This document shows, piece after piece, positions 8,012 to 39,878 of a stretch of 64,000 nucleotides of DNA. Source of the DNA: Balneola sp. EhC07. Its GTDB lineage: Bacteria > Bacteroidota > Rhodothermia > Balneolales > Balneolaceae. The stretch lies in contig NZ_LXYG01000008.1 in assembly GCF_001650905.1 (NCBI RefSeq), positions 1 to 64,000 of the forward strand, written 5' to 3'. Every line of letters begins with the position of its first letter. Positions within the stretch are counted from its first letter, which is position 1. The position numbers were made by a program, and so were the translations under genes. The notes below the pieces were generated by a model. That model searched no databases and had not been told where the DNA came from. It saw only the letters and a program-made list of their open reading frames with translations.

Positions 8012-9799
8012 TTGAATTTAGAGCGTAAGATAATATCAAGTTTTTTACTGTTGGCAGTTTTGCTCATTGGGATAGGATTCGTATGGGAATTCTACTATAC
8101 AGAGATCAATAACAAGCAGTTTTTAGAGAGTAAGGATGCTACTTCAATTGTTGATTTTACAAATCAGATGGAAGTAGGTTTGCATCAGACTCTGATCTAT
8201 TTGAACCTGATTCATGAATCCAGAACATCAAGAGAGAACATAAAAGATATCCGGGATTTACCATTACCATCGCAAGCAAAGGCAGGATTCGAAAAAGGAT
8301 TAACAGCTTTCCACACCTCACGAGAAGATCTGGAAAAAATTATTGCAGATAAACCGATGCTTCTGGAGGAAATGTATGAACTACAGCGGCGAGTACTATT
8401 GTATGAAAACTTATCGAAAGATTGGCTTGATATGGATGAAGACTCCAGGGCTCAGTCAAATGTGCTTTTTTTATCATCTATAGCGCCTTATTTTTTAAAT
8501 AATATCATTCCTAAATTTGAAGAGATACGATCATTAGCTATTGCCCGTCAAGACATGATGATCAATGATCTGGATACTAAGTTGAGTAGAGGAAGAATTA
8601 TTAATTATTCCGCTACTTTTATAATTCTGATAATTGGAATCGGAATTGCTCTGTATTTATATCGATCAATTATCAACCCACTCCAAGCACTTTCTGTTTC
8701 CGTAAAAAAAGTAGGTGAAGGAGATCTGGATGAACGAGTAGAAATAAAAACCAGGGATGAGTTTGGAGAAGTGGCCAGCGCCTTCAACACCATGGCAGAA
8801 AACCTTCAGAAACAAACTATTTCAAGTACCTATTTAGATAATGTGATGGAATCTATCAATGAAGGTATTTTTGTGATCAATAATGAAGGAAATGTAATAC
8901 GCCTCAATGAAGCTGCTGCCGAAATGTTGGAATTAGATAAAAGCGAGTTGATAGGAAAACCAATTTCTACATTTTTTAAGCTAATAGTGCCTGAAGAAAC
9001 CTCATCAGATAAAAGGGCACAAGAGTATCAACTGCAGACAATAAGAGACAACAAAGTTCCGGTTTTGTTTTCGGAATCCGGTTTATTTGAAGATGGTGAA
9101 AAGAAGGGAAGTGTGGTCGTAGTTCGTGATATTTCGGAGCTAAAAAATGCTGAAAATCAGATAAAAAAATCCTTAGACGAAAAGAATGTGATGTTGGCAG
9201 AAATTCATCACAGGGTTAAAAATAATCTAGCGGTGGTTTCGGGATTGCTTCAACTACAGGTGATGCAAACACAAAGCGAAGAAGTAATTAAAATGCTTAC
9301 CGAAAGTCAGCTTAGAGTTAAATCCATTGCTCTGATTCACGAAAAGTTGTACAGTAGTGATTCCTTAGCCTACATCGACTACGATAAATACACCAAGGAT
9401 TTAGTTGAAACCATTAGTAACACTTACAATCTTAGTAGCAAAAAGATCAAAGTCAGGACAAGCATCACAGATGTATCTTTAAATGTTAATCAAGCAATAC
9501 CTTGTTCTTTGCTGATCAACGAAGTTTTGGTTAATGCATATAAACATGCTTTTAACAAGCGCGAGCAAGGGGAGATATTAATTTCGATGACTGATAAAGA
9601 CGGGGAAATAAATATTGAAGTGAGTGATAACGGAGAAGGATTGAGAGAATTAGAGAAAGAAAAGTCTAAAACAAATTCACTCGGTTTTACCTTGATCAAG
9701 ACTTTAACAATGCAGCTTGAAGGTTCCTACTCATTTAATAACAGAAAAGATACTTCAGGTACTATTTTTCAACTTTCATTTTCTAAAGAGTACAGCTAG
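8012..9799 (+). CDS. Membrane sensor histidine kinase (HAMP-PAS-HisKA_2-HATPase)
   Basis: Signal-sensing kinase. TTG start: the next in-frame triplet group upstream ends in a stop at 8000-8002 and there is no ATG. Transmembrane helix 1 spans about residues 8-27, a mostly helical periplasmic domain about 28-196, helix 2 about 197-217, HAMP about 216-268 and PAS about 272-375. The phosphoacceptor helix has EIHHRVKNNLAVVSGLLQLQ (397-416), diagnostic of HisKA_2. The ATPase domain follows, with an N box (LLINEVLVNAYKHAF) and a G box (SDNGEGL). No response regulator is adjacent, so its partner must be elsewhere. Its closest relative in the window is the kinase at 14068. Confidence 0.85.
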   Translation: MNLERKIISSFLLLAVLLIGIGFVWEFYYTEINNKQFLESKDATSIVDFTNQMEVGLHQTLIYLNLIHESRTSRENIKDIRDLPLPSQAKAGFEKGLTAFHTSREDLEKIIADKPMLLEEMYELQRRVLLYENLSKDWLDMDEDSRAQSNVLFLSSIAPYFLNNIIPKFEEIRSLAIARQDMMINDLDTKLSRGRIINYSATFIILIIGIGIALYLYRSIINPLQALSVSVKKVGEGDLDERVEIKTRDEFGEVASAFNTMAENLQKQTISSTYLDNVMESINEGIFVINNEGNVIRLNEAAAEMLELDKSELIGKPISTFFKLIVPEETSSDKRAQEYQLQTIRDNKVPVLFSESGLFEDGEKKGSVVVVRDISELKNAENQIKKSLDEKNVMLAEIHHRVKNNLAVVSGLLQLQVMQTQSEEVIKMLTESQLRVKSIALIHEKLYSSDSLAYIDYDKYTKDLVETISNTYNLSSKKIKVRTSITDVSLNVNQAIPCSLLINEVLVNAYKHAFNKREQGEILISMTDKDGEINIEVSDNGEGLRELEKEKSKTNSLGFTLIKTLTMQLEGSYSFNNRKDTSGTIFQLSFSKEYS

Positions 9800-9822
9800 A
9801 CTTTTAAGAGCATCTCTGAAAG

Positions 9823-10563
9823 TCATAAGCCAAATATTTTTACAATGAAAATGGAAATTGTAAATCCTAAAAACGCATAGGTAGTCCAGGCTAAAACAGA
9901 TATAAGAAGGGATTTTAAAATGCGGAGAAACAAGTTTCCTGAATGAAAACTCGCTAATACATAAACGGGATATAAAAATACTACCAAATAGTTAAGTAGA
10001 AAAAATTTAGCAGAGATGGTACTTGCAATAAGGATAAAGATGGAAAAAAACATGTACTCGCCAATAATGAAAAATCCCAGTGTTAAATATTCTACGAAGT
10101 AAACCTTAGATTTGAGATTGAATAACTTGCTGAATAAAGCAATTGTCAGAGCAAAGATTAATAAGAAGGCATTGATATGATTCGAAAAATAATTCGATGC
10201 TTTTGCTATGGTTGTATCAGGGCTAGGAATCTGTTCCACACCTCTTAGATCAGAGACCATTTGGATTGGATCAAAATCCATAAAACTCTTAAGTATCAGA
10301 TAAATAGCCAATACAAAAATGAAGTAACGGAAAGGGTGAGAGTAAGATTTTCTCCTTCCGGCAATGTATTCTCTTATAAGTTTACCGGGATTTGTTATTA
10401 ATCCTCTAATTGTTCTGATAAGTGGTGTATCAAAATCGAAGTAATGCTCTAAAACATCCCGAACAGATTCTCGAAATATAATGCGACCACTATTTGGTTT
10501 TTGGCCACAGTTAGGACAAAAATTACCTTCGAATTCAGTTCTGCAATTATTACACACTATCAT
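9823..10563 (-). CDS. DUF3667-type membrane protein with N-terminal zinc ribbon
   Basis: The function of the family is unknown. The N-terminus has two CxxC knuckles (CNNC at 4-7 and CPNC at 16-19) expected to bind zinc. A conserved cytoplasmic segment (NPGKLIREYIAGRRKSY, about residues 57-73) is typical of DUF3667. Four or five hydrophobic helices follow from about residue 78 to the end. At 246 aa it has normal family length. It converges on the sensor kinase gene with only 23 bp between stops and is separated from the amidohydrolase by that gene's terminator, so it may have its own promoter. A membrane location is well supported. Confidence 0.75.
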   Translation of the reverse strand: MIVCNNCRTEFEGNFCPNCGQKPNSGRIIFRESVRDVLEHYFDFDTPLIRTIRGLITNPGKLIREYIAGRRKSYSHPFRYFIFVLAIYLILKSFMDFDPIQMVSDLRGVEQIPSPDTTIAKASNYFSNHINAFLLIFALTIALFSKLFNLKSKVYFVEYLTLGFFIIGEYMFFSIFILIASTISAKFFLLNYLVVFLYPVYVLASFHSGNLFLRILKSLLISVLAWTTYAFLGFTISIFIVKIFGL

Positions 10564-20374: not shown

Positions 20375-20818
20375 TTACGAGTTTTTTTGGCCGAGTCTTT
20401 TTGGGTGATCATCCGCTTCCTGCAGTTCATCGAATGCATGTTGAAAGGTCGACATCAATTCCATGTATTTTTTTGAATTCTTTACGTCATCTTGCAAATT
20501 TCGAGACTTCAAGCTTTCATTTTCAGACGACTTAATAAACCTCCAAAACTCAAATTGCACTGTTTCACCTTCATATTCCAGATAGATATTGCCTGTTTCA
20601 TCAACTGATTTATAGAAAAAATTAGCTTTGCCAAAACCACCGCTCATTTGTTCAGTAGCAGACATATACTTGTACAAATCTTTCGATTTGGCATTCAGAT
20701 AACCCAATGCCTTTGCAATATTCCAGCAAAAGATCTTATCACCCTCTCGCCAGTGTAATATTTCAGGATACCAAGTATGAGGTGGTTTCCCTTTTTTGTC
20801 GTTCTTGAAAAAACTCAT
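20375..20818 (-). CDS. Unknown protein, tandem family member 1
   Basis: Not recognised. One of four adjacent paralogues (20375-22058). It shares the N-terminal block FFKNDKKGKPPHTWYPEILH followed by WREGD, a central beta-rich part ending in QFEFWRFIK, and a C-terminal helix YMELMSTFQHAFDELQEAD. No signal peptide and no transmembrane segment, so it is predicted to be cytoplasmic. It is the longest of the four (147 aa), with an insertion around residues 40-62. Its ATG overlaps the stop of member 2 (TAATG), so translation is probably coupled. Position between paaY and paaZ implies co-transcription with the phenylacetate genes, but the motifs give no enzymatic hint. Confidence 0.8.
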   Translation of the reverse strand: MSFFKNDKKGKPPHTWYPEILHWREGDKIFCWNIAKALGYLNAKSKDLYKYMSATEQMSGGFGKANFFYKSVDETGNIYLEYEGETVQFEFWRFIKSSENESLKSRNLQDDVKNSKKYMELMSTFQHAFDELQEADDHPKRLGQKNS

Positions 20819-21237
20819 TATTTCAAACGTTTAGGATTGTCAGATTCTTCCAACTCATTATATGCATTTTGGAAATTTTTCATTAGCTCCATGTAACCTT
20901 CTGAGTCTTGTTGTTTTTGTTCAACCAATCTGCTTTTAAGAGTTTCATTGGTTGATACTTTAATAAATCTCCAAAATTCAAATTGTACAAGATGATCATC
21001 AGGATCAGTTAAGTAGATACTCCCGTCCTTATTAATTGATTTATATATAAACCGTACTTTGCCGATCACCTCATTTGGTTTCATATATTTAAGAATATCC
21101 TCTGTTTTCGCATTTTTATAACCAAAAGCTCTCGAGATATTTCTGCAGTAAATTGTATCACCTTCTTGCCAGTGCAAAATCGCAGGATACCATGTGTGAG
21201 GAGGTTTATTTTTTTTATCGTTCTTAAAAAATCCCAT
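20818..21237 (-). CDS. Unknown protein, tandem family member 2
   Basis: A 139-aa paralogue of its neighbours. The N-terminal block (GFFKNDKKNKPPHTWYPAIL) is nearly identical to member 1, HWQEGD replaces HWREGD, and QFEFWRFIK is retained. The C-terminal helix reads YMELMKNFQNAYNELEESD. It shares the strongest similarity with member 1 in the middle region (both have GY-NAK near residue 39 and a tail ending in PKRL), which suggests the most recent duplication produced this pair. TAATG overlaps link it to members 1 and 3. Function unknown. Confidence 0.8.
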   Translation of the reverse strand: MGFFKNDKKNKPPHTWYPAILHWQEGDTIYCRNISRAFGYKNAKTEDILKYMKPNEVIGKVRFIYKSINKDGSIYLTDPDDHLVQFEFWRFIKVSTNETLKSRLVEQKQQDSEGYMELMKNFQNAYNELEESDNPKRLK

Positions 21238-21659
21238 TAGTCCAACAGTTTTTTAGCTTTATCCGATTGGGAAAGTTCATCGTATGCATTCTGAAAATTT
21301 TTCATCAATTCCATATAATTTTCAGTTCCTTTTAGGCGATCCTGAACCATTCTGTTAGCCAAGCTCTCATTTTTTGATTTTTTTATAAATCGATAGAATT
21401 CGAATTCGAGCAAATTCTCTTTTTCATCTTTCACAAAAATTTTCCCTTCAGAATTCACTCCAACAAATGTAAAGTGAGCTTTAGCAAAACCACCCCCTTC
21501 AGGAGTATACCGGTGAACCACAGCCCAAGATTGTTTATTGTTACCAAGTGCAGACATCACATTCCAGCAATAAATAGAATCGCCTTCTCTCCAATGTAAA
21601 ATATCAGGATACCAGATATGCGGAGGCTTTCCTTTTTTCTCGTTTTTAAAAAATCCCAT
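21237..21659 (-). CDS. Unknown protein, tandem family member 3
   Basis: A 140-aa paralogue. The block GFFKNEKKGKPPHIWYPDIL, then HWREGD, opens it; EFEFYRFIK and YMELMKNFQNAYDELSQSD close it. The middle (about residues 38-75) is the least conserved part and contains a Gly-rich segment, PEGGGFAKAHF, also hinted at in member 1 (SGGFGKANF). The stop of member 4 is followed directly by this gene's ATG (TAAATG). No catalytic residue pattern is evident; invariant His, Trp, Glu and Asp of the HWxEGD motif could be functional. Confidence 0.8.
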   Translation of the reverse strand: MGFFKNEKKGKPPHIWYPDILHWREGDSIYCWNVMSALGNNKQSWAVVHRYTPEGGGFAKAHFTFVGVNSEGKIFVKDEKENLLEFEFYRFIKKSKNESLANRMVQDRLKGTENYMELMKNFQNAYDELSQSDKAKKLLD

Positions 21660-22058
21660 TTATTCTAATAATTTTGGGTTGTCTGATTCCTGAAGTTCGG
21701 TATATGCTTTTTGAAACGACTCAATTAATTCCATGTAATTATTAGATTCTTTAATCTCTAATGAAATTATACGATTCTGGAAACTTATATTTTTAGCAGT
21801 TTTTATAAACTTTCGGAACTCATACTTATTCAGATTTCCTGATTCTTTTTCTTCAATAATAATATAACCTTCGGAAGACAGGCTCTTATAAAAACCGTGC
21901 TTCTTATTTTTATCTTCGTATGTATCAATATCAATTTCAAAAGGACCGTTTAGAACAACATTCATGTATACTAACTCATCACCTTCTCTCCAGTGCAAAA
22001 CATCAGGATGAAGTTTATGAGGGGGTAAGTTTTTCTTACTTCTTTTAAAAAATCCCAT
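21660..22058 (-). CDS. Unknown protein, tandem family member 4 (first translated, most divergent)
   Basis: At 132 aa it is the shortest and most diverged copy and the first in transcription order. It keeps GFFKRSKKNLPPH and LHWREGD, but the following region is replaced by an acidic and lysine-rich stretch (about 40-60) and the FEFWRFIK core reads YEFRKFIK. The C-terminal helix YMELIESFQKAYTELQESD is conserved. The retained ends and divergent middle suggest a common scaffold with a variable central part. A GTGATTAG-type inverted repeat separates it from paaY. Confidence 0.78.
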   Translation of the reverse strand: MGFFKRSKKNLPPHKLHPDVLHWREGDELVYMNVVLNGPFEIDIDTYEDKNKKHGFYKSLSSEGYIIIEEKESGNLNKYEFRKFIKTAKNISFQNRIISLEIKESNNYMELIESFQKAYTELQESDNPKLLE

Positions 22059-22072
22059 GTGTTCTGCTGATG

Positions 22073-30641: not shown

Positions 30642-31586
30642 TTAAGAAGCCTTTTCGCGGCTTAAATTTTTCTTTCTGGCATACGCTTGTGCTGCTTCAC
30701 GAACCCAAGCGCCATCTTCATGTGCTTTTCTGCGCGATTTCATTCGCTCGCGGTTCATAACACCATTTCCTTTTACTACGTCCCAAAATTCATCCCACGG
30801 AATTTCACCAAATTCCCAGTGTCCGGTTTCGTCATTAAACTTCAGATCCGGATCCGGAAGTGTTAACCCAACTGCTTCAGCTTCCATAACCACTCTGTCA
30901 ACAAAATGCTGACGAAGCTCATCGTTGGTATTCAATTTCACTTGCCATTTCAGTAATTCAGCACTGTTAGGAGAGTTAGAATCGTTTGGTCCAAACATCA
31001 TTAAAGTTGGCCACCAAAAACGATCAACAGCACTTTGCACCATTTTGCGTTGAGCAGGAGTTCCTTCAGCAAGCTTGGCTACCATTTCGTAACCCTGCTT
31101 TTTATGGAAACTTTCTTCCTTGCAAATTCTAAGGTTCGCTCTTGCATAAGGACCGTAACTGGAGTGCGCCAATTTAGTTTGATTTACAATAGCCGCACCA
31201 TCAACCAACCAACCGATAATGCAAACATCTGCATAGCTTAAGGTCGGATAATTGAAAATACTGGAATATTTAGCGTTTCCGTACAAATACTGATCGATGA
31301 GTTCGCTACGTCTCACACCTAAAGTTTCGATAGCGCTGTATAAATATAATCCGTGCCCGGCTTCATCCTGAACTTTAGCAAGAAGCACTAATTTTCTTTT
31401 TAGTGATGGAGCTCTGGAGATCCAATTTCCTTCAGGAAGCATACCTACGATCTCAGAATGTGCGTGCTGGCTACCCATGCGAATGATCTGTTCGCGATAG
31501 CGTTCAGGCATCCAGTCTTTGGGTTCTATCTTTTCGCCGGCATCAATTCGGGCTTGAAAGTCGTCTAATTGCTGTTGTGTTTCCAT
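30642..31586 (-). CDS. paaA: Phenylacetyl-CoA epoxidase catalytic subunit PaaA
   Basis: Di-iron monooxygenase subunit that epoxidises phenylacetyl-CoA. 314 aa; helix ligands in [18 protein letters not shown] (ExxH, about residues 68-85) and [16 protein letters not shown] (about 150-165). The substrate-binding stretch [19 protein letters not shown] lies near 188-206. First gene of the operon; its upstream region contains a 21-bp palindrome 49 bp before the ATG. PaaE, the electron-supplying reductase, is not found in the window. Confidence 0.95.
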
Positions 31587-31958
31587 ATGGTGTAAGCGCT
31601 TTTTTAGTTCAGTGGCATAACATCCTTTAAAAGAATTATATTCCTTGAATATAATAAAAGCAGACTATTGATTTTTGTTTATTCATTTCCTTTCATACAT
31701 TTTATACAGTTATTATTAAAGATCATTCCAAATTTAAATATCCGGAGATAAAATGGATCAAAAATGACGTGCTTAGCAACATTTATAGTTCTACTCAATG
31801 AAGTATAATTATCTAGTAAAAGGCAAAGCAGTCATTTATTTTCAAAATCGGATAAAAGTAGTAGTTGGGTAGACCGAAATTTCATTCAAGAGCTACAGCA
31901 ACTCAATATTTTGCAGTACTGTTGAATGCCAACCTGAACAGTTTGTAAAAATATTACG
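31587..31958. other. Divergent control region between paaA and hppD
   Basis: 372 bp without a supported gene. It is AT-rich and must hold the divergent promoters for the paa operon and for hppD-hmgA. Apart from the palindrome at 31635-31655 I see no known operator. The longest plus-strand frame with an ATG (from 31798) is only about 24 codons. Confidence 0.7.
31635..31655. promoter_or_regulatory. 21-bp palindrome, candidate operator of the paa operon
   Basis: ATTATATTC-CTT-GAATATAAT has perfect 9-bp arms and a 3-bp centre, 49 bp upstream of the paaA start codon. Position and symmetry suit a TetR- or GntR-type repressor site. No regulator gene lies in the window. Confidence 0.55.
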
Positions 31959-33095
31959 ATGAAAGATCAAGACAACGTATTGGAAAGAGAAATAGAAGAA
32001 GAATTTGATGACCATTTGGGATTACAGGATGTGGATTATGTGGAGCACTATGTAAGTAATGCTAAACAGACCGCTCACTACTACATAACCACTTTCGGAT
32101 TTCAACTAAAAGCTTACTCAGGTTTGGAAACCGGAGTTCGGGATAGATCTTCCTACTACTTAGAACAGGGAAATATTCGGTTTGTAATTACAGCTCCGCT
32201 AAGCAGTAAGTCACCCATTTCGGAGTTTGTGCATAAGCATGGTGATGGAATCAAAGATATTGCAATGCATGTGGAAGATGTAGATCGGGCTTTCAAGGAA
32301 AGCGTTAAAAGAGGAGCGGAAGTTGTTGAAGAACCACATTCCATTACTGATGGCGACGGAACGATCAGAAAAGCAGCCATCAGAACCTACGGTGATGTAA
32401 TTCACTCTTTCATTAACAGAACGGAATATGATGGGATTTTCTTTCCGAAATTTGTTGCCAAGGAAAATTTGATCAGCACCGAACCTGTTGGTGTTCAGTT
32501 TGTGGATCATTGTGTGGGCAATGTGGAACTCGGAGAAATGGACACCTGGGTAGCTTTTTACAGAGATGTTCTTGGTTTCACGCAATACATCAGTTTTGAT
32601 GATAAAGATATCTCAACCGAATACACCGCTTTGATGAGTAAAGTGATGGCAGGCGGTAGGGGAATGATCAAGTTTCCGATCAATGAGCCGGCTGATGGTG
32701 TGAAGAAATCGCAAATTGAAGAATATCTGGATTTCTTTGAAGGACCTGGAGTTCAGCATGTGGCTTTACTAACAGCTGATATTATTGATACGGTGACCAA
32801 ACTTCGTGACAGAGGCGTGGACTTTCTTAAAGTGCCGACAACTTATTACGAAGAACTGGAAGATCGTGTAGGTAAGATCGATGAACCCATTGATGTACTC
32901 GCTGATCTTGGAATTTTAGTAGATCGAGATGATGAAGGATATTTGCTTCAGATCTTTACGAAGCCGGTAGTTGATAGACCAACGCTTTTTTATGAAATCA
33001 TTCAGCGAAAAGGTGCTCGAGGATTCGGAAAAGGAAATTTCAAAGCACTTTTCGAAGCCATCGAACGCGAACAAGAGCTGAGAGGAAACCTCTAA
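31959..33095 (+). CDS. hppD: 4-Hydroxyphenylpyruvate dioxygenase
   Basis: Fe(II)-dependent conversion of 4-hydroxyphenylpyruvate to homogentisate. Two vicinal-oxygen-chelate modules: residues about 20-150 and 170-350. Iron ligands are His184 in VDHCVGN, a His near 265 in GVQHVALLT, and the Glu in FYEIIQRKG near 345. The C-terminal helix GNFKALFEAIEREQ is the family's gate helix. At 378 aa it is typical. First gene of a plus-strand unit with hmgA, divergent from paaA. Confidence 0.95.
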   Translation: MKDQDNVLEREIEEEFDDHLGLQDVDYVEHYVSNAKQTAHYYITTFGFQLKAYSGLETGVRDRSSYYLEQGNIRFVITAPLSSKSPISEFVHKHGDGIKDIAMHVEDVDRAFKESVKRGAEVVEEPHSITDGDGTIRKAAIRTYGDVIHSFINRTEYDGIFFPKFVAKENLISTEPVGVQFVDHCVGNVELGEMDTWVAFYRDVLGFTQYISFDDKDISTEYTALMSKVMAGGRGMIKFPINEPADGVKKSQIEEYLDFFEGPGVQHVALLTADIIDTVTKLRDRGVDFLKVPTTYYEELEDRVGKIDEPIDVLADLGILVDRDDEGYLLQIFTKPVVDRPTLFYEIIQRKGARGFGKGNFKALFEAIEREQELRGNL

Positions 33096-33113
33096 ACGAA
33101 TTATTAATTATGG

Positions 33114-33153
33114 ATTATGAATTTTGAATGGCAGCTAATTCAAAATTCATAAT
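33114..33153. repeat. 16-bp hairpin between hppD and hmgA
   Basis: ATTATGAATTTTGAAT (33114-33129) and ATTCAAAATTCATAAT (33138-33153) are exactly complementary with an 8-bp loop. Partial copies of the same words flank both arms. A looser relative (two AATTCAAAATT words) occupies the spacer at 17852-17885. Confidence 0.75.
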
Positions 33154-33173
33154 TAAACATTCAAAATTAAGCC

Positions 33174-34331
33174 ATGTATTATCACGCATTAGGAACCATC
33201 CCACATAAACGTCATACGGTATTTCGCCGACCGGACGGAGAATTGTTTACGGAAGAATTATTCGGAGCTGAAGGCTTTCACGGAAACAGTTCGTTGCTGT
33301 ACCATTACCATATGCCGACGCGAGTGACCAAGATCGAGCAAGGAGCAAAGATCGAAGTAAAAGCGGCAGACGATCAAACACTTCGTCATCGTCATTTGAA
33401 GACCAAAGATATTCCAACAGGCGGAGATGCCATTACCGGGCGAAAGGTTTTGATGTTCAATAATGATCTTCAGATTGGAATCATGCGACCAACCGATGCC
33501 ATGAATTACTTTTATCGCAATGGCGAACATGACGAATTGTTGTTCATTCACGAGGGGACCGGACATCTGCAAACCAATTTTGGTCGACTAGATTTCGGAT
33601 ACGGAGATTACATTTACATCCCGCGTGGAACAACCTACCAAATGAATTTTGATACGGACAAGAACCGTGTACTTACTGTAGATTCTACCGGACCCATTGA
33701 TTTTCCGAAGCGCTATTTATCTGAAATGGGGCAATTCATGGAAAACTCACCGTTTTGTGAACGTGATTTCCGTTTACCACAAGAGCAATTGTTCTTTGAG
33801 GAAGAAGGAGAGTTTGAAGTTCGTATCAAGAAAGGTGGAAGAATGCATCATTATACTTTTGATCATCATCCGTTAGATGTAGTTGGCTGGGATGGATATT
33901 TGTATCCGTGGATCTTCAACATCAAGGATTTTGAGCCGATCACCGGACGAGTTCACCAACCACCACCCGTACATCAAACTTTCCGTGGACATAACTATGT
34001 AGTATGTAGTTTCTGTCCAAGGAAATTCGATTATCATCCGGATGCCATTCCGGCGCCATATAATCACTCCAATGTAGATTCAGACGAAATGCTGTACTAC
34101 GTGGAGGGCGATTTCATGAGCAGAAAAGGAATGGATTATGCGAGTATCACGCTTCACCCCGGAGGAATTCCGCACGGTCCACATCCCGGAAAAGCAGAAG
34201 CCAGCATCGGCGCTGAAGAAACGGACGAATACGCAGTTATGATCGATACCTTCAAACCCATGTACGTGACTGAAGAAGCAATGCGACTAGACGATCCGAG
34301 TTATCCGTATTCGTGGTTGGAGGGGAAGTGA
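33174..34331 (+). CDS. hmgA: Homogentisate 1,2-dioxygenase
   Basis: Opens the aromatic ring of homogentisate to maleylacetoacetate in tyrosine degradation. Cupin-type, 385 aa; iron-ligand motifs PPPVHQTFRGHNYVVCSFCP (about 262-281) and DEMLYYVEGDFMSRKG (about 303-318), then HPGGIPHGPHPG (about 327-338). The gene is complete. Its last 264 bp plus 3 bp are repeated 804 bp downstream with only synonymous differences. The next steps, maleylacetoacetate isomerase and fumarylacetoacetase, are not in the window. Confidence 0.93.
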   Translation: MYYHALGTIPHKRHTVFRRPDGELFTEELFGAEGFHGNSSLLYHYHMPTRVTKIEQGAKIEVKAADDQTLRHRHLKTKDIPTGGDAITGRKVLMFNNDLQIGIMRPTDAMNYFYRNGEHDELLFIHEGTGHLQTNFGRLDFGYGDYIYIPRGTTYQMNFDTDKNRVLTVDSTGPIDFPKRYLSEMGQFMENSPFCERDFRLPQEQLFFEEEGEFEVRIKKGGRMHHYTFDHHPLDVVGWDGYLYPWIFNIKDFEPITGRVHQPPPVHQTFRGHNYVVCSFCPRKFDYHPDAIPAPYNHSNVDSDEMLYYVEGDFMSRKGMDYASITLHPGGIPHGPHPGKAEASIGAEETDEYAVMIDTFKPMYVTEEAMRLDDPSYPYSWLEGK

Positions 34332-34370
34332 AAGCAAGTAGAATCAATATTAAAAATTTTTGCTTCAACT

Positions 34371-34865
34371 TTGATTTGTTGTGGATTAATTTTTCTATTT
34401 ACAAATAATGTTTTGGGGCAAACAAAAGCTAAAAATAAAGCAATATATATAGAATCCTTTGGGACTAGTTTTTCTGGCTTTACTTTGAATGTTGCATATA
34501 GGATTCCATTTCATAAAGAGGAAGATACAGGTGTGCTTTTCAGTTTGGGAGCAGGTTTAAACCCATTCAATATCGGTTACAGAGAAGAAAAAAATCAATA
34601 TGTTATTCCTCTAAATGTATCACTATTCTATAGAAAATTAGAAATAGGAATCGGTATCACTCACACCAATATCTTCAAAATGGAATATATTCCAACTAGC
34701 AGTATATCATATTCATTTCAGAGGGAAAATATATTTCTTAAACCATCTATTAATGGGCTATATATACAAACAGACATTAATTCAGAAGGGTGTGGCCACC
34801 GAGATTCTTGTGATCCGAAAAGAGTCCTTCCTTTTCCAGGTCTTAGTGTTGGGTATAAGTTTTGA
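34371..34865 (+). CDS. Exported beta-rich protein with abnormal 5' end, between the two hmgA ends
   Basis: Not recognised. The frame is open from just after the hmgA stop (34329-34331), reading through a signal-peptide-like stretch LKIFASTLICCGLIF and cleavage site VLGQ, but contains no ATG or GTG; TTG at 34371 is the first usual start and would drop the basic N-region. The mature part (about 145 aa) alternates aromatic and polar residues and ends in GLSVGYKF, like a small outer-membrane beta-barrel. It lies in the same frame as hmgA and stops at 34863-34865, seven bases before the second hmgA end. It was probably joined to hmgA by a recombination that removed its own start region, so it may be a truncated pseudogene. 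Confidence 0.5.
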   Translation: MICCGLIFLFTNNVLGQTKAKNKAIYIESFGTSFSGFTLNVAYRIPFHKEEDTGVLFSLGAGLNPFNIGYREEKNQYVIPLNVSLFYRKLEIGIGITHTNIFKMEYIPTSSISYSFQRENIFLKPSINGLYIQTDINSEGCGHRDSCDPKRVLPFPGLSVGYKF

Positions 34866-34871
34866 TTAGGT

Positions 34872-35135
34872 TCCAATGTAGATTCAGATGAAATGCTGTA
34901 TTACGTGGAAGGCGATTTTATGAGCAGAAAAGGAATGGATTATGCGAGTATCACGCTACATCCAGGGGGAATTCCACACGGTCCGCACCCCGGAAAAGCA
35001 GAAGCCAGCATCGGCGCTGAAGAAACGGATGAATATGCCGTGATGATCGATACCTTTAAGCCGATGTACGTCACCGAAGAAGCAATGCGATTAGACGATC
35101 CGAGTTATCCGTATTCTTGGTTGGAGGGGAAGTGA
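34872..35135 (+). pseudogene. hmgA: Detached 3' end of a second hmgA allele
   Basis: 34872-35138 aligns without gaps to 34068-34334, the last 87 codons of hmgA plus the stop and 3 bp. I count 22 base differences, all at synonymous positions, so the encoded sequence is identical. Homology stops at exactly 34872 on the left and after GTGAAAG on the right. There is no catalytic upstream part, so it cannot encode a working enzyme. An internal ATG at 34893 could make an 80-aa peptide. Confidence 0.85.
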
Positions 35136-35148
35136 AAGTTTAATATTT

Positions 35149-35186
35149 GAAAAAAAAAACGGATTTTAAGATCTAGTTTTTCCGTT
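35149..35186 (-). terminator. Possible terminator of the PHP-ATPase unit
   Basis: On the minus strand AACGGA and TCCGTT pair across a 17-bp loop and are followed by ten T. It is located 65 bp after the last gene of the unit. The stem is short, hence modest confidence. Confidence 0.4.
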
Positions 35187-35250
35187 ATGTATTGATCTTT
35201 AACTTTTAATTTAAGAGCAAAATCGCTGTTAATTATTTTTGGATATTATC

Positions 35251-35547
35251 TTATTGATATTTCTCTAATTCTTCTTTGTATAGGCTTTCAGTTTGGTCCT
35301 TAAATCTGTCTTTATTGCTTAGAAAAGTACTTAGTTTTTCGTGCAGGCTTTTGTAAATAATTTGATGTGCTTTATGACCTAAAGTTATTTCGTCATAATC
35401 GTCCATCTCAAAATCCACTTCAGTCGCGAAATTTAAGAGTTTTAATAAATCCTCTTTTTCAATTTTATCAATTTCAGTCCAATCTTCAGGTTGAGCCTTG
35501 TCTTTAATAAAAAATGCTTTATTATCTTCAATCTTTAAGTATTTCAT
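35251..35547 (-). CDS. Small acidic partner protein of the PHP-ATPase
   Basis: Not recognised. 98 aa from the ATG at 35547, which overlaps the end of the ATPase gene by 20 bp and is preceded by AAAGAG; starts at 35577 or 35583 are also open. Strongly charged, mainly helical (KIEKEDLLKLLNFATEVDFE, then KSLHEKLSTFLSN), no signal peptide and no membrane helix. Overlap with the ATPase gene implies coupled expression and a joint function. AT-rich like its neighbour and unlike the surrounding core genes. Confidence 0.65.
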   Translation of the reverse strand: MKYLKIEDNKAFFIKDKAQPEDWTEIDKIEKEDLLKLLNFATEVDFEMDDYDEITLGHKAHQIIYKSLHEKLSTFLSNKDRFKDQTESLYKEELEKYQ

Positions 35548-37540
35548 AGCTCTTTTTATGACGTTCGTTATATGCATCTTCACCCGCTTCTAAACAATTT
35601 AAAAGTACATCCAGATTTTTTATACTTTCACCATTTGCGCTCTTTAATATTTTACTAGTTGGGTGACCGAAAAACACTTTATACTCAACATCGTCAGGCT
35701 TCACAATTTTTTGAGTAAATACAACATGATTTGGATTTATTGAAGCCCCGATAGTGCTATTATGTGTAACTACAATAACAGGAATTTCTTTTGCTATTTC
35801 TTTAATTAATTCATTCACTTCATTTTTGAGGAAAATATTGTCGAAAGATGATTCAGGTTCATCAATTAACAAGAGGTCATACTTCAAGGCATCACTTATT
35901 TCGTGTAGCAAATTAAACTCAGAACGTTCTCCCCCAGAAACTTCATAACCGTGTTTATTTAGTGTTCTGTAGTCAATATCAACAAAGTATTTGTAATACT
36001 CAGTTTCTTCAATTCCAACATTTTGCAAGGCTATCAAAAATTTATATGGGTCTTCATAGTTATTGAATGCTTCACTAAAACTAAGTTTACTTTTACTTTT
36101 ATTTTTTAACTGGATAGCGCCAGTATATTTTTTTGTTTTAGCCAAGACCTTAAAGCCTCTAATTTCTTTACTATCGATTACTTTTTCGTGTTGAATAGAC
36201 TTAACAAGCTGTTTGAATTTCTGCACCTTAATTTTTTCAAGTTGTATCTTGGTAAAATCTATGTCTTCAACTGTTGTAGTAGTTGAACGAAATTTCAAGC
36301 TATCCTTAATCGATTCAATAAGATTATTAGTCCATTCTTTTTTTAGATTATTTTCGTGAATTTCATTGTGCTTTTGAATTAATTCAGAAATCAGGCTTTT
36401 AAGATTTACACCTGAGATGTGCTTATCCACTATATCTTTGTACTCATTAGCTTCAACCAATGTCTTAGTTGCATTAATAAGCTTTTTTAAATTCTCTAAA
36501 TTATCAAGTGTAAACTTATTTTCATTATACAAAGCACATTTTGAGAAAGTGTCCAGACTATCGCTTTCTGAGGCAAATTTCTTTAAGGAGGTTAGATATT
36601 TTTCAATCGAAATTTCATTAGCTTTTAAGTCAATATCATTTACATCATATACTACATCTTTAAATTCTTTAAGATAATTTTCTGTTATAAGGCTGTGTCT
36701 AGTTGTTACCAGTTTTTTGAAGTTTTCTTTGTCATTTTGTAATAAAGAAAACTGTTTTAAATATTTTACATTATCAAAATTGTCACAAATTTTATCTAGA
36801 GTATAAGTCTTTCCAGATGAACGACCACCGACAATGACATTGAGACTGGTCGACAACATAATTCCATCATCAGTAGCTTGAAAGAAATCGTTTCCTTCTT
36901 CTTTTGAAAGGAAAACTTTCGTTTTGTCAAACAAACAACCTTTTATAGCATTTAAAGAGGTTTCTTCAACGTCAAGGTATGTTTGTCTAGTTGGATAGGA
37001 CGTCATATTCTCAACGAACCTTTCATCACTAAAAATAACAGGTGTTAATTTATCTTGTTCTTTGATACATGCTTTAAACTTTCTCAAGCTAGCTACTTCT
37101 CCAGCAAAAATACTATCTCCAAATTTTGCTAGTGTATCAGGTTGTAATTTTGGTTTTTTGTCATAATGAGGTATCAACAAGTAATTATTTAGATCACCAT
37201 AGATTTCGATCAATTCATCATAGCTAATGTCATCATTGGGCGATTTAATTAAGTCACTTACTTTTTGAGATTTGGTAGCAAAATCATCAAGATTTTCAAT
37301 TTCAGATATCAACAATAAATGACCGCCTTCTAAGTCAATTTCTATCCCTGGGAAAACCTTAACATCTAATTCATTTGATATTTGTACATACTGAGCTTTA
37401 TCAAATAAATTATGGTTAGTTATTGCAATACAGTCAATTTCAAGTAAATCAACATATTCTTTCAATGATCCTATATGAAAATCAAAGGGACTATCGCTAA
37501 TGGATTTAACTGTATGAATATGGAAATCAATTTTCTTCAA
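35528..37540 (-). CDS. PHP-domain phosphoesterase fused to an ABC/SMC-type ATPase
   Basis: 670 aa. Residues 1-215 are a PHP domain (DFHIHTVKSISD at 5-16, AITNHN near 40, GIEIDLEGGH near 64-73), predicted to cut phosphodiester bonds or nucleotides. The ATPase part has Walker A GGRSSGKT (about 236-243), a long helical insertion (about 280-510), an ABC-like signature YEVSGGERSEF (about 533-543), Walker B LLLIDEPESS (about 553-562) and the switch His in VVTHNST. The order PHP then ATPase recalls TrlF-like proteins and toxin-ATPase defence proteins. AT-rich coding and placement next to a recombinant hmgA end suggest acquisition by transfer. A role in phage defence is inferred. Confidence 0.75.
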   Translation of the reverse strand: MKKIDFHIHTVKSISDSPFDFHIGSLKEYVDLLEIDCIAITNHNLFDKAQYVQISNELDVKVFPGIEIDLEGGHLLLISEIENLDDFATKSQKVSDLIKSPNDDISYDELIEIYGDLNNYLLIPHYDKKPKLQPDTLAKFGDSIFAGEVASLRKFKACIKEQDKLTPVIFSDERFVENMTSYPTRQTYLDVEETSLNAIKGCLFDKTKVFLSKEEGNDFFQATDDGIMLSTSLNVIVGGRSSGKTYTLDKICDNFDNVKYLKQFSLLQNDKENFKKLVTTRHSLITENYLKEFKDVVYDVNDIDLKANEISIEKYLTSLKKFASESDSLDTFSKCALYNENKFTLDNLENLKKLINATKTLVEANEYKDIVDKHISGVNLKSLISELIQKHNEIHENNLKKEWTNNLIESIKDSLKFRSTTTTVEDIDFTKIQLEKIKVQKFKQLVKSIQHEKVIDSKEIRGFKVLAKTKKYTGAIQLKNKSKSKLSFSEAFNNYEDPYKFLIALQNVGIEETEYYKYFVDIDYRTLNKHGYEVSGGERSEFNLLHEISDALKYDLLLIDEPESSFDNIFLKNEVNELIKEIAKEIPVIVVTHNSTIGASINPNHVVFTQKIVKPDDVEYKVFFGHPTSKILKSANGESIKNLDVLLNCLEAGEDAYNERHKKSYEILKD

Positions 37541-37729
37541 TTTTCTTTTTTACTCAAATTACAGACAGCATATAGCAATGATTATTCATATAAGGGTGTC
37601 TTATTTTGTTAAGCATTTTACCGTGCCAAATAATAGACGAATGTAATTGATAAAATTATAGGTTACAAAAAATAATTTGAATCTTTGTGTTATACCGATT
37701 CCAAATCAAGTCCGGAATGTCCTCGAGGC

Positions 37730-37826
37730 TGTCATTTCGATCCCGACAATTCGGGAGAGAAATCTAAGAATCAGTATTAAAGGCGATCTTTAGATTTCTC
37801 AGTCGTCAGGCTCCTTCGAAATGACA
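37730..37826. repeat. GTCATTTCGA / GAGAAATCTA palindromic element, copy 1
   Basis: TGTCATTTCGA (37730-37740) pairs with TTCGAAATGACA (37815-37826), and GAGAAATCTAA (37757-37767) with TTAGATTTCTC (37790-37800). CCCGACAATTCGGG lies between the left words. A second copy in the same orientation is at 40120-40225, on the other side of the peptidase gene. Confidence 0.8.
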
Positions 37827-37849
37827 AAACTGATGATGCTGAGGGTGAC

Positions 37850-37978
37850 TTCCATTTGCGAGGAGGACTGATCGTATCTCTAGGTTAAAAAGTAATCGAC
37901 GAAGCAATCCCCCATAAAAAAGCTGGAATAAGGAGATTGCTTCAGGATTTGCTTCGCGTAATCCTTCGCAAATGGGAA
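37850..37978. repeat. Degenerate GCGAGGA / GAAGCAATC palindromic element
   Basis: TTCCATTTGCGAGGA (37850-37864) is complementary to TCCTTCGCAAATGGGAA (37962-37978) with small differences, and GAAGCAATC (37901-37909) to GATTGCTTC (37935-37943). The word order resembles the widespread TCATTGCGAGGA...GACGAAGCAATC repeat of many environmental bacteria. Confidence 0.65.
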
Positions 37979-38072
37979 ATGAGATTATAAAAAAAGTCAA
38001 CATTCGGCATTCATATTGGATGTTCAATGTTCTTTTCTCATCTTCCATCGTTCAATTCAAAAAATTACATCC

Positions 38073-39878
38073 ATGAAGAAGTATTCCCTATTCCTAATTC
38101 CTGTATTCCTAATTTCACTATTCAGCGAAGCGACGGCCCAAACCCATAATCAGTACGAAATTTCATTCGAAAATGCGGTTCATCACGAAGCAGAGATCTC
38201 AGTCACCTTTCCAAATGTAGAAAACAAAGTGCTGGAAGTGAGAATGAGCAGGACATCTCCGGGACGATATGCACTTCATGAATTTGCCAAGAACGTTTAT
38301 AATGTAACCGCGGTAGACGGAAACGGAAATGAATTGGAAATAACACGACCAAATCCACATCAATGGAATGTAAGCGGTCATGACGGAACCGTGAAGTTCA
38401 GCTACACTTTATACGCGAACAGAGGAGGAGGGACGTACACCGGAATTGACGAAACGCATGCACATATGAACATGCCGGCGACTTTTGCGTGGGCACGAAA
38501 CTACGAATACCGTCCGATCGAGATCACCTTCAACAAAAGAGACGACCTGAACTGGGAAATAGCTACACAGCTAAAGCATGTGGAAGGAAATACCTATTAC
38601 GCGGAAGATCTTCAGTACTTTTTAGACAGTCCGACCGAAATTGCAGATATGCATTTTCGAGAAGAAAAAGTAGACGGACAGAATATTCGATTGGCTTTAC
38701 ACACTCCGGCTTCAGATAAAGAAGTGGACGAATATTTCGGGAAGGTAATGGCGATCGTAAAAGCGCAGAGAGATATTTATGGTGAAATGCCAACGTTCGA
38801 TTACGGTGAGTACACATTTTTGACTTGCTACATGCCCAACGCCAGCGGAGATGGAATGGAGCACCGAAATTCTACCTATGTGGTAAGTTCAAAACCATTA
38901 GACCGACCTTTGGGAGAAACCAGCATTGGAACCATTTCTCATGAATTTTTCCATGCTTGGAACGTAGAACGAATTCGTCCGGCAAGTCTGGAACCATTCG
39001 ATTTTGAAGAAGCGAATATGAGCGGTGAACTTTGGTTTGCCGAAGGATTTACGAGCTATTATACAGGCTTGACACTTGCCAGAGCTGACATCAGAACAGA
39101 TCAGCAATATGTAGAAGGATTGGACGGTGGACTGAATTACGTGGTCAATTCTCCGGGAAGGAATTACTTTAATCCGATCGAAATGAGCTATCAGGCTCCG
39201 TTTGTAGATGCGGCGCGATCAGTAGATCCTGTGAATCGCTCGAATACGTTTGTGTCATACTATACATACGGAAGTGTGCTTGGATTAGGATTAGATCTTT
39301 CACTTAGAACAATGGATAAAGGCTTAAATCTCGATGATTATTTCAAGCTAGTTTGGATGAAATACGGCAAGACAGAAGTTCCGTATACCGTTAAAGATCT
39401 TCAGGTTGCTTTAGCAGAATATGCGGGCAAAGAATTTGCTGACAACTATTTTGAGAATTACATCTTTGATAGCAAACTTCCTCATTACAAATCTCTGTTT
39501 ACGAAAGTAGGAGTGAAGCTAGAATTAGCGGAACCGAACAAAGCGAGTTTAGGCGAAACCATCCGAAAGCGAAATGACGAATGGAAGATGACTTCAAATG
39601 CAACGGTTGGAAGTCCGATCTACAAGGCAGGAATTGAATCAGAAGATGTGTTTATTTCCATTGCAGGAACGGACCTGAATTCCGTAGAAAACGTAGATGA
39701 GATCTTAGCAAATCATAAACCGGGCGATGTTATTAAAGTAGTCATCGAAAGATGGGGACAAGAAAAAACCTTTGATGTTACACTGGAAGGTTCTAAGCGA
39801 TTACAAACTACTCTTGATGAAAATGCAGGTAGAAAAGAGATGGAGAGAAGAAATGCTTGGATCGGGGTTAAGAAGTGA
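38073..39878 (+). CDS. M61-family glycyl aminopeptidase, exported
   Basis: Zinc metallopeptidase. Start placed at the ATG at 38073, which gives a proper signal peptide (KKYSLFLIPVFLISLFSEAT, cut near 23); the open frame to 38016 adds residues from spacer DNA. The N-terminal beta domain (about 25-180) precedes the catalytic domain with HEFFH (His290, Glu291, His294) and WFAEGFTSYY, whose Glu is the third ligand. A PDZ domain closes it (about 500-590, SPIYKAGIESEDVFISIAG). At 601 aa it matches the family. Isolated between two repeat-rich spacers; its stop codon lies inside a 25-bp tandem array. Confidence 0.87.
   Translation: MKKYSLFLIPVFLISLFSEATAQTHNQYEISFENAVHHEAEISVTFPNVENKVLEVRMSRTSPGRYALHEFAKNVYNVTAVDGNGNELEITRPNPHQWNVSGHDGTVKFSYTLYANRGGGTYTGIDETHAHMNMPATFAWARNYEYRPIEITFNKRDDLNWEIATQLKHVEGNTYYAEDLQYFLDSPTEIADMHFREEKVDGQNIRLALHTPASDKEVDEYFGKVMAIVKAQRDIYGEMPTFDYGEYTFLTCYMPNASGDGMEHRNSTYVVSSKPLDRPLGETSIGTISHEFFHAWNVERIRPASLEPFDFEEANMSGELWFAEGFTSYYTGLTLARADIRTDQQYVEGLDGGLNYVVNSPGRNYFNPIEMSYQAPFVDAARSVDPVNRSNTFVSYYTYGSVLGLGLDLSLRTMDKGLNLDDYFKLVWMKYGKTEVPYTVKDLQVALAEYAGKEFADNYFENYIFDSKLPHYKSLFTKVGVKLELAEPNKASLGETIRKRNDEWKMTSNATVGSPIYKAGIESEDVFISIAGTDLNSVENVDEILANHKPGDVIKVVIERWGQEKTFDVTLEGSKRLQTTLDENAGRKEMERRNAWIGVKK

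Follow-up and report, generated by a model that had tools for sequence, protein, structure and literature searches.

The window analysed here is a stretch of 64,000 nucleotides (positions 1 to 64,000, forward strand, of contig NZ_LXYG01000008.1) from the genome of Balneola sp. EhC07. It carries the 3' end, about the last quarter, of an hmgA-like gene of amino acid degradation twice, once in an intact gene and once, further downstream, as a fragment. How did this second gene end arise, and what kind of recombination could have left it there? The features of the locus are as follows.

31959 to 33095, plus strand: gene resembling 4-hydroxyphenylpyruvate dioxygenase (HPPD-like), upstream neighbour of hmgA, with Pfam Glyoxalase and HPPD N-terminal matches
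33174 to 34331, plus strand: intact hmgA-like gene of 385 amino acids, Pfam HgmA_N at 50.9 bits (cut-off 20.2)
34068 to 34334, plus strand: first copy of the 267-nt repeat (W), the hmgA 3' end from codon 299 onward and 3 nt past the stop codon
34332 to 34865, plus strand: orphan ORF between W and W2, no match in Pfam, PADLOC or NCBIfam
34866 to 34872, no strand: junction of the ORF end with the hmgA fragment, hmgA homology starting at 34872
34872 to 35138, plus strand: second copy of the 267-nt repeat (W2), an hmgA fragment made of codons 299-385, the stop codon and AAG
35251 to 35583, minus strand: candidate phage-defence protein PDC-M49B (PADLOC, E = 2.9e-35)
35528 to 37540, minus strand: candidate phage-defence protein PDC-M49A, TrlF/AAA-like (PADLOC, E = 3.7e-294)
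37631 to 37843, no strand: right flank of the slot between hmgA and M61, common to the congeners G004 and G007 (about 81%)
38073 to 39878, plus strand: gene of an M61 glycyl aminopeptidase, which forms the conserved right-hand border of the slot (the ORF is listed from TTG at 38016; ATG at 38073 chosen by eye)

We use the name hmgA on the basis of the Pfam HgmA_N match and of the HPPD-like gene next door. Since the protein reaches 61 bits against TIGR01015, far under the cut-off of 511, the window's hmgA is, judging from these scores, a divergent form of the family. The intergenic region between the HPPD-like gene and hmgA contains an AT-rich inverted repeat (33099-33168).

W and W2 lie 804 nt apart, start to start, and align over 267 nt without gaps and with 92% identity. 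The alignment of both copies returned 22 differences, 21 at the third codon position and one at the first, and the two translations give the same 87 residues, followed by the same stop codon and the same AAG. When the repeat was searched against its own assembly (3.62 Mb in 20 contigs, 98.56% completeness, contamination 0), only these two places were found (E = 7.7e-137 and 4.9e-107, far above chance), and a third copy was absent from the 20 contigs. The alignment and the search thus confirm the original prediction that 34872-35138 repeats 34068-34334 gap-free with silent differences only. The sole other direct repeat of at least 60 nt found in the window is a 126-nt unit present four times at 20694-22059 (399-422 apart, with 60-74% similarity of the copies to the reference). 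No tRNA genes were found in the window, and the Rfam scan of 33000-38200 returned one miRNA-family match only (23 bits, cut-off 53).

To read the 22 silent differences, we compared the tails with those of 11 relatives (five congeners and six others) among the hmgA carriers found. G003 and G006, which belong to the same genus and have a homologue of hmgA that is just 52-53% identical, were left out. The 87-residue tail is identical in W, W2 and four congeners (G001, G002, G004 and G007). All 15 pairwise distances between these six Balneola tails fall between 19 and 29 and are silent throughout, with no nonsynonymous change, and the distance of 22 between W and W2 is one of them. As every pair among the six is separated by silent changes in this range, the ratio of 22 silent to no nonsynonymous differences is, at the level of sequence, an ordinary between-species distance and no special sign. 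A more distant congener, G005, differs from the six tails at 36-47 positions, two to three of them nonsynonymous. The same ratio speaks against a long neutral decay of W2. Private changes are silent in all six tails and similar in number (five in W, five in W2, five to six in each of the other species); that all five of W2 are silent has a probability of about 7e-4 without constraint, and the unconstrained changes in W2 since it was cut off amount to at most about two at 95%. The silence of all five makes it most likely that W2 acquired them as part of a working gene and was severed recently. The two tails look like two alleles of one gene end that are separated by a between-species distance and were constrained until recently. 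The claim that both copies had diverged inside working genes is borne out by the six tails and by the private changes of W2 alike.

We then asked how often the gene occurs in relatives and which of the tails might be the resident one. At E <= 0.001 the hmgA protein was detected in 36 of the 58 genomes searched, own genome included; two matches occur in the window's genome only, and each of the 35 other carriers has a single match. W2 differs from G004 and G007 at 19 and 20 positions, as compared to 23 and 22 for W. Counting only the 22 sites at which the two copies differ, agreement with W2 and with W, respectively, is 13:9 for G004, 11:9 for G007, 10:11 for G001 and 9:12 for G002. In the outgroups as well, agreement is more frequent with W2 (11:7 for G005, and 9:7 for each of two Gracilimonas-type genomes), so that the lean of W2 to G004 and G007 may only reflect more change in W. 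In the trees of the tails, the branches of interest reach supports of 43-75 and the relationships are star-like; forcing W and W2 to be sisters costs 1.6 log units and is not rejected (AU p = 0.37). As to allele halves swapped between the copies, the 22 differing sites do not sort by relative. The original prediction had expected one tail to group with the backbone of this genome and the other with a donor; the distances, sites and trees described above point clearly neither to such a split nor away from it. It had also named an outcome that would speak against it, namely that the copies are each other's closest relatives and the fragment shows relaxed selection. Relaxed selection was not seen in W2, and a sister grouping is not rejected by the AU test.

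The sequence between the copies offers further indications. The orphan ORF starts directly 3' of the hmgA stop codon and in frame with it; neither ATG nor GTG occurs there, and the first listed start is a TTG at 34371. Inspection by eye shows a hydrophobic, signal-peptide-like start and an end in ...GYKF, and by eye only the product would be outer-membrane-protein-like. Since it has a signal-peptide-like start without ATG or GTG, the ORF was probably beheaded where it joined hmgA. We counted the position of W, adjoining an ORF without a start, in favour of the allele swap proposed below. The ORF matched only itself at E <= 0.001 in 92 genomes of the family and 394 of the phylum (overlapping sets, own genome included), and it had no match at E <= 0.01 among plasmids or phages and none confirmed among viral contigs. 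Weak matches at E <= 0.1 were found in 18 others of the 128 genomes of the order, the best with E = 0.0054 over 33 residues. The ORF therefore appears to have no credible relatives in the sets searched. W2 begins at codon 299, six bases past the stop codon of the ORF. As the end of the ORF and hmgA at codon 299 have no visible homology, the join at the left edge of W2 is, on this comparison, illegitimate, whichever copy is resident. The hairpin score of the sequence past W2 is z 0.30.

The repeat lies in a slot whose content varies among relatives. Measured from the end of hmgA to where the M61 match begins, the gap spans 190-251 bp in three genomes that belong to two other genera, and 612, 1227, 1460, 3730 (window), 4045 and 6446 bp in six Balneola. 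The slot of the window holds the orphan ORF, the hmgA fragment and the PDC-M49B and PDC-M49A genes. PDC-M49A has two further matches under the cut-offs, PHP at 21.5 bits (Pfam cut-off 26.4) and TrlF_fam_ATP at 88 bits (cut-off 350); among the 92 family genomes one further full-length relative occurs, in G082 (59% identity), and none was found in the seven other genomes of the genus. In the other species, PADLOC was run on seven cargo ORFs and Pfam on five, and not on all of them. These scans identified a CBASS-type cyclase, E2 and NucC in G001 (locus L048, 9169-11590) and YaaC-like, LigB-type dioxygenase and NmrA-like genes, among others, in G002. The slot of G005 contains a 113-aa ORF with no Pfam match, and those of G004 and G007 a common 195-aa ORF with no PADLOC or Pfam match. 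A dispersed intergenic repeat at 37720-37840 is also found in intergenic regions of several congeners, once between the HPPD-like gene and hmgA.

The same two core borders thus enclose varied cargo among relatives. Because the borders are nearly adjacent elsewhere and the cargo varies in the six Balneola, the slot has the appearance of an exchange hotspot with a conserved gene on either side and with a cargo that would be partly antiviral. Core defence hotspots have reportedly been described for bacteria. Hotspots of gene exchange between core genes and without recognisable mobile elements are known in other bacteria and, as described there, resemble the present slot in that a variable cargo, partly of defence genes, is flanked by two conserved genes (PMC5635113). 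Unlike what that source describes, the window shows a single event as a scar inside a border gene. We found no literature joining homogentisate 1,2-dioxygenase, genomic islands and hotspots.

Taken together, we consider it likely that W and W2 are two interspecies alleles that were joined by one recombination event, which left the old tail as a scar. In the resident locus, hmgA would have ended in one tail (probably W2), with the PDC-M49 genes and M61 behind it. The incoming DNA, from another Balneola species, would have brought its own hmgA tail (probably W) and, next to it, the headless orphan ORF. At one junction a homologous crossover inside hmgA would have kept the gene intact as a hybrid; at the other an illegitimate join would have linked the sequence past the ORF (34871) to codon 299 of the resident hmgA. 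The outcome would be a gain of 804 bp, with the former 3' end standing ahead of its old neighbours. W2 would be a non-functional scar, and is probably the former resident tail. The intermediate might have been a trimmed and recircularised fragment of about 804 bp (267 bp of hmgA tail and 537 bp with the ORF) that entered by a single crossover, which would yield precisely the duplication observed. We infer the circle intermediate, the identity of the resident tail and uptake by natural transformation. All eight genomes of the genus have a ComEC-like competence domain; since 10 of the 14 controls, E. coli among them, have one as well, it says little on transformation. That an incoming related allele left the former 3' end downstream, as originally proposed, is the best reading of the present evidence.

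A trimmed circle entering by single crossover accounts for the duplication better than classical HFIR, because a duplication is what is seen, while HFIR generally deletes resident DNA. The locus resembles HFIR in having one homologous and one illegitimate junction; however, HFIR as described usually removes a similar length of resident DNA and relies in most cases on microhomologies of 3-10 bp (PMC3240628). Opposite the insertion, no loss of resident DNA is seen here, and the partial homologous segment is instead directly duplicated around the added DNA, which is the feature of the single crossover. In the E. coli lacZ assay of the same study, 56 of the 60 tested clones had a PCR sign of partial duplication of the homologous segment, and the duplications of the 14 sequenced clones measured 109-950 bp, a range that includes the 267 bp of the window (PMC3240628). 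That account attributes the duplications to single crossovers by trimmed, recircularised DNA, and regards four clones as apparent true HFIR (PMC3240628). Unlike in the assay, the event in the window is natural and involves species-level alleles, and here the circle and the route are deduced.

Similar arrangements have been reported elsewhere. In the displacement of T6SS effector-immunity genes in Vibrio cholerae, the hybrid gene is followed by the new neighbour, the old 3' end and the old neighbour, as in the window (PMC5361080). The source proposes the order of hybrid gene, new neighbour and old 3' end for T6SS loci and extends it by citation to rhs orphan 3' ends. In these systems the cargo is the variable domain of the gene itself (PMC5361080), whereas in the window hmgA serves as a border and the protein sequence of its tail has not changed. 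With prophage e14 in icd, too, the intact hybrid of a metabolic gene is followed by a displaced 3' end that has diverged almost silently; the duplicated end is 165 bp long, with 12 nucleotide and two amino acid changes (PMC11148124). However, e14 is described as a prophage with its own integrase gene (PMC11148124), and none is seen in the interval of the window. The scar of an allele swap is a known kind of event, here unusually well preserved. It offers a readable intermediate of cargo uptake at exchange spots without integrases. The leftover tail would record how the allele of a foreign species entered via the border gene and shifted an older candidate defence cargo further along, leaving the tail of the enzyme unchanged. 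Silently diverged 3' fragments of core genes, downstream of intact copies, may serve as a handle to search for further cases.

The two tails could also derive from a tandem duplication of hmgA in this lineage, in which both genes remained functional for long and the second was recently truncated by insertion of the ORF or by deletion. Silent-only differences would be expected in this case too, and the tree test leaves W and W2 free to be sisters. We nevertheless regard it as unlikely: none of the 35 other hmgA-bearing genomes has a second copy, the distance between W and W2 is that between species, with W2 slightly nearer to G004 and G007 than to W, and two hmgA genes would have to be kept for long before most of one was lost. 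Import of an already scarred locus from another species, through a double homologous exchange in the core genes on either side and with the junctions formed elsewhere, agrees with the published hotspot model as far as it is described (PMC5635113). It also fits the local shift in flank similarity to G007: in bins of 400 bp, G007 is the nearest relative at 31273-33273 and none is clear within hmgA, and the distance to it is 0.8-1.5% at 31273-32073 and 5.8-9.0% at 32073-34331. However, such import adds a step, the scarred form occurs in none of the relatives searched, and the arrival of the scar would be accounted for but not its origin. We therefore consider it quite improbable. An assembly chimera of two strains, conceivable in an assembly of 20 contigs, has next to no likelihood, given the high completeness and zero contamination and the lack of visible common sequence between the ORF end and hmgA codon 299 on which an assembler could have based the join.

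A further alternative is a site-specific element that, like e14 in icd (PMC11148124), brought its own hmgA 3' end, had its core at codon 299 and later shrank to about 540 bp. The layout of the locus agrees with that of e14, and the 17-bp left edge TCCAATGTAGATTCAGA is the same in both copies. Against this, the three interval ORFs scanned contain no recombinase, and the only sizeable plus-strand ORF between the copies (34332-34865) has no family match that would make it an integrase. The genome has eight tyrosine-recombinase-type matches, none of them on the hmgA contig. The inserts of five other Balneola (G001, G002, G004, G005 and G007) start at the hmgA stop region, so codon 299 is not reused. 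Integron integrases over the cut-off occur in six of the eight genomes of the genus, the window's genome and G005 not being among them, and the attC type of the genus is missing from the window and from the loci of five congeners at up to four mismatches per arm. We consider such an element very unlikely, and the part of the original prediction that invoked integration at a gene end is not supported, given that no recombinase was seen among the interval ORFs scanned, that no tyrosine-recombinase-type match lies on the contig and that the other inserts do not use codon 299.

The preferred reading, an allele swap that left the old tail behind, leaves room to ask whether the hmgA 3' end is used as a site in the genus. 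The inserts of G004 and G007 directly 3' of hmgA differ at one position in about 750 bp (loci L050 and L051, about 9150-9905). This near-identity starts six bases ahead of the hmgA stop codon and extends to +750, whereas the flanks are overall 7-9% different: the left one has 22 differing sites in 300 bp, the closest of them seven bases ahead of the stop codon, and the right one 11 in 119 bp, from +751. Since homologous exchange normally carries flanking sequence along, a precise insertion appears possible in these two genomes. Sequence related to their right-hand side (81%) adjoins the PDC-M49 block of the window. There is a slim chance that Balneola has an unrecognised system for moving cassettes that truly inserts at the hmgA 3' end; the tails in the window would then be traces of such insertions.

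Integron arrays with attC-type repeats of the form TAACGACC...TTGTTAT are found elsewhere in Balneola (L170 in G007, L172 in G002 and L174 in G003), and the attC type of the genus was derived from the repeats of the arrays. At four or fewer mismatches per arm it has no match in the window and the five congeners' loci, and 1-14 matches in each of five control arrays. The scans at six and five mismatches returned scattered matches in every source, mostly on both strands, which we took as background. Rfam returned no match on the G004 insert. At the insert starts, the hairpin signal is z -0.18 in G004 and G007 and z -3.09 in G002, where a 9-bp stem is possibly a terminator.
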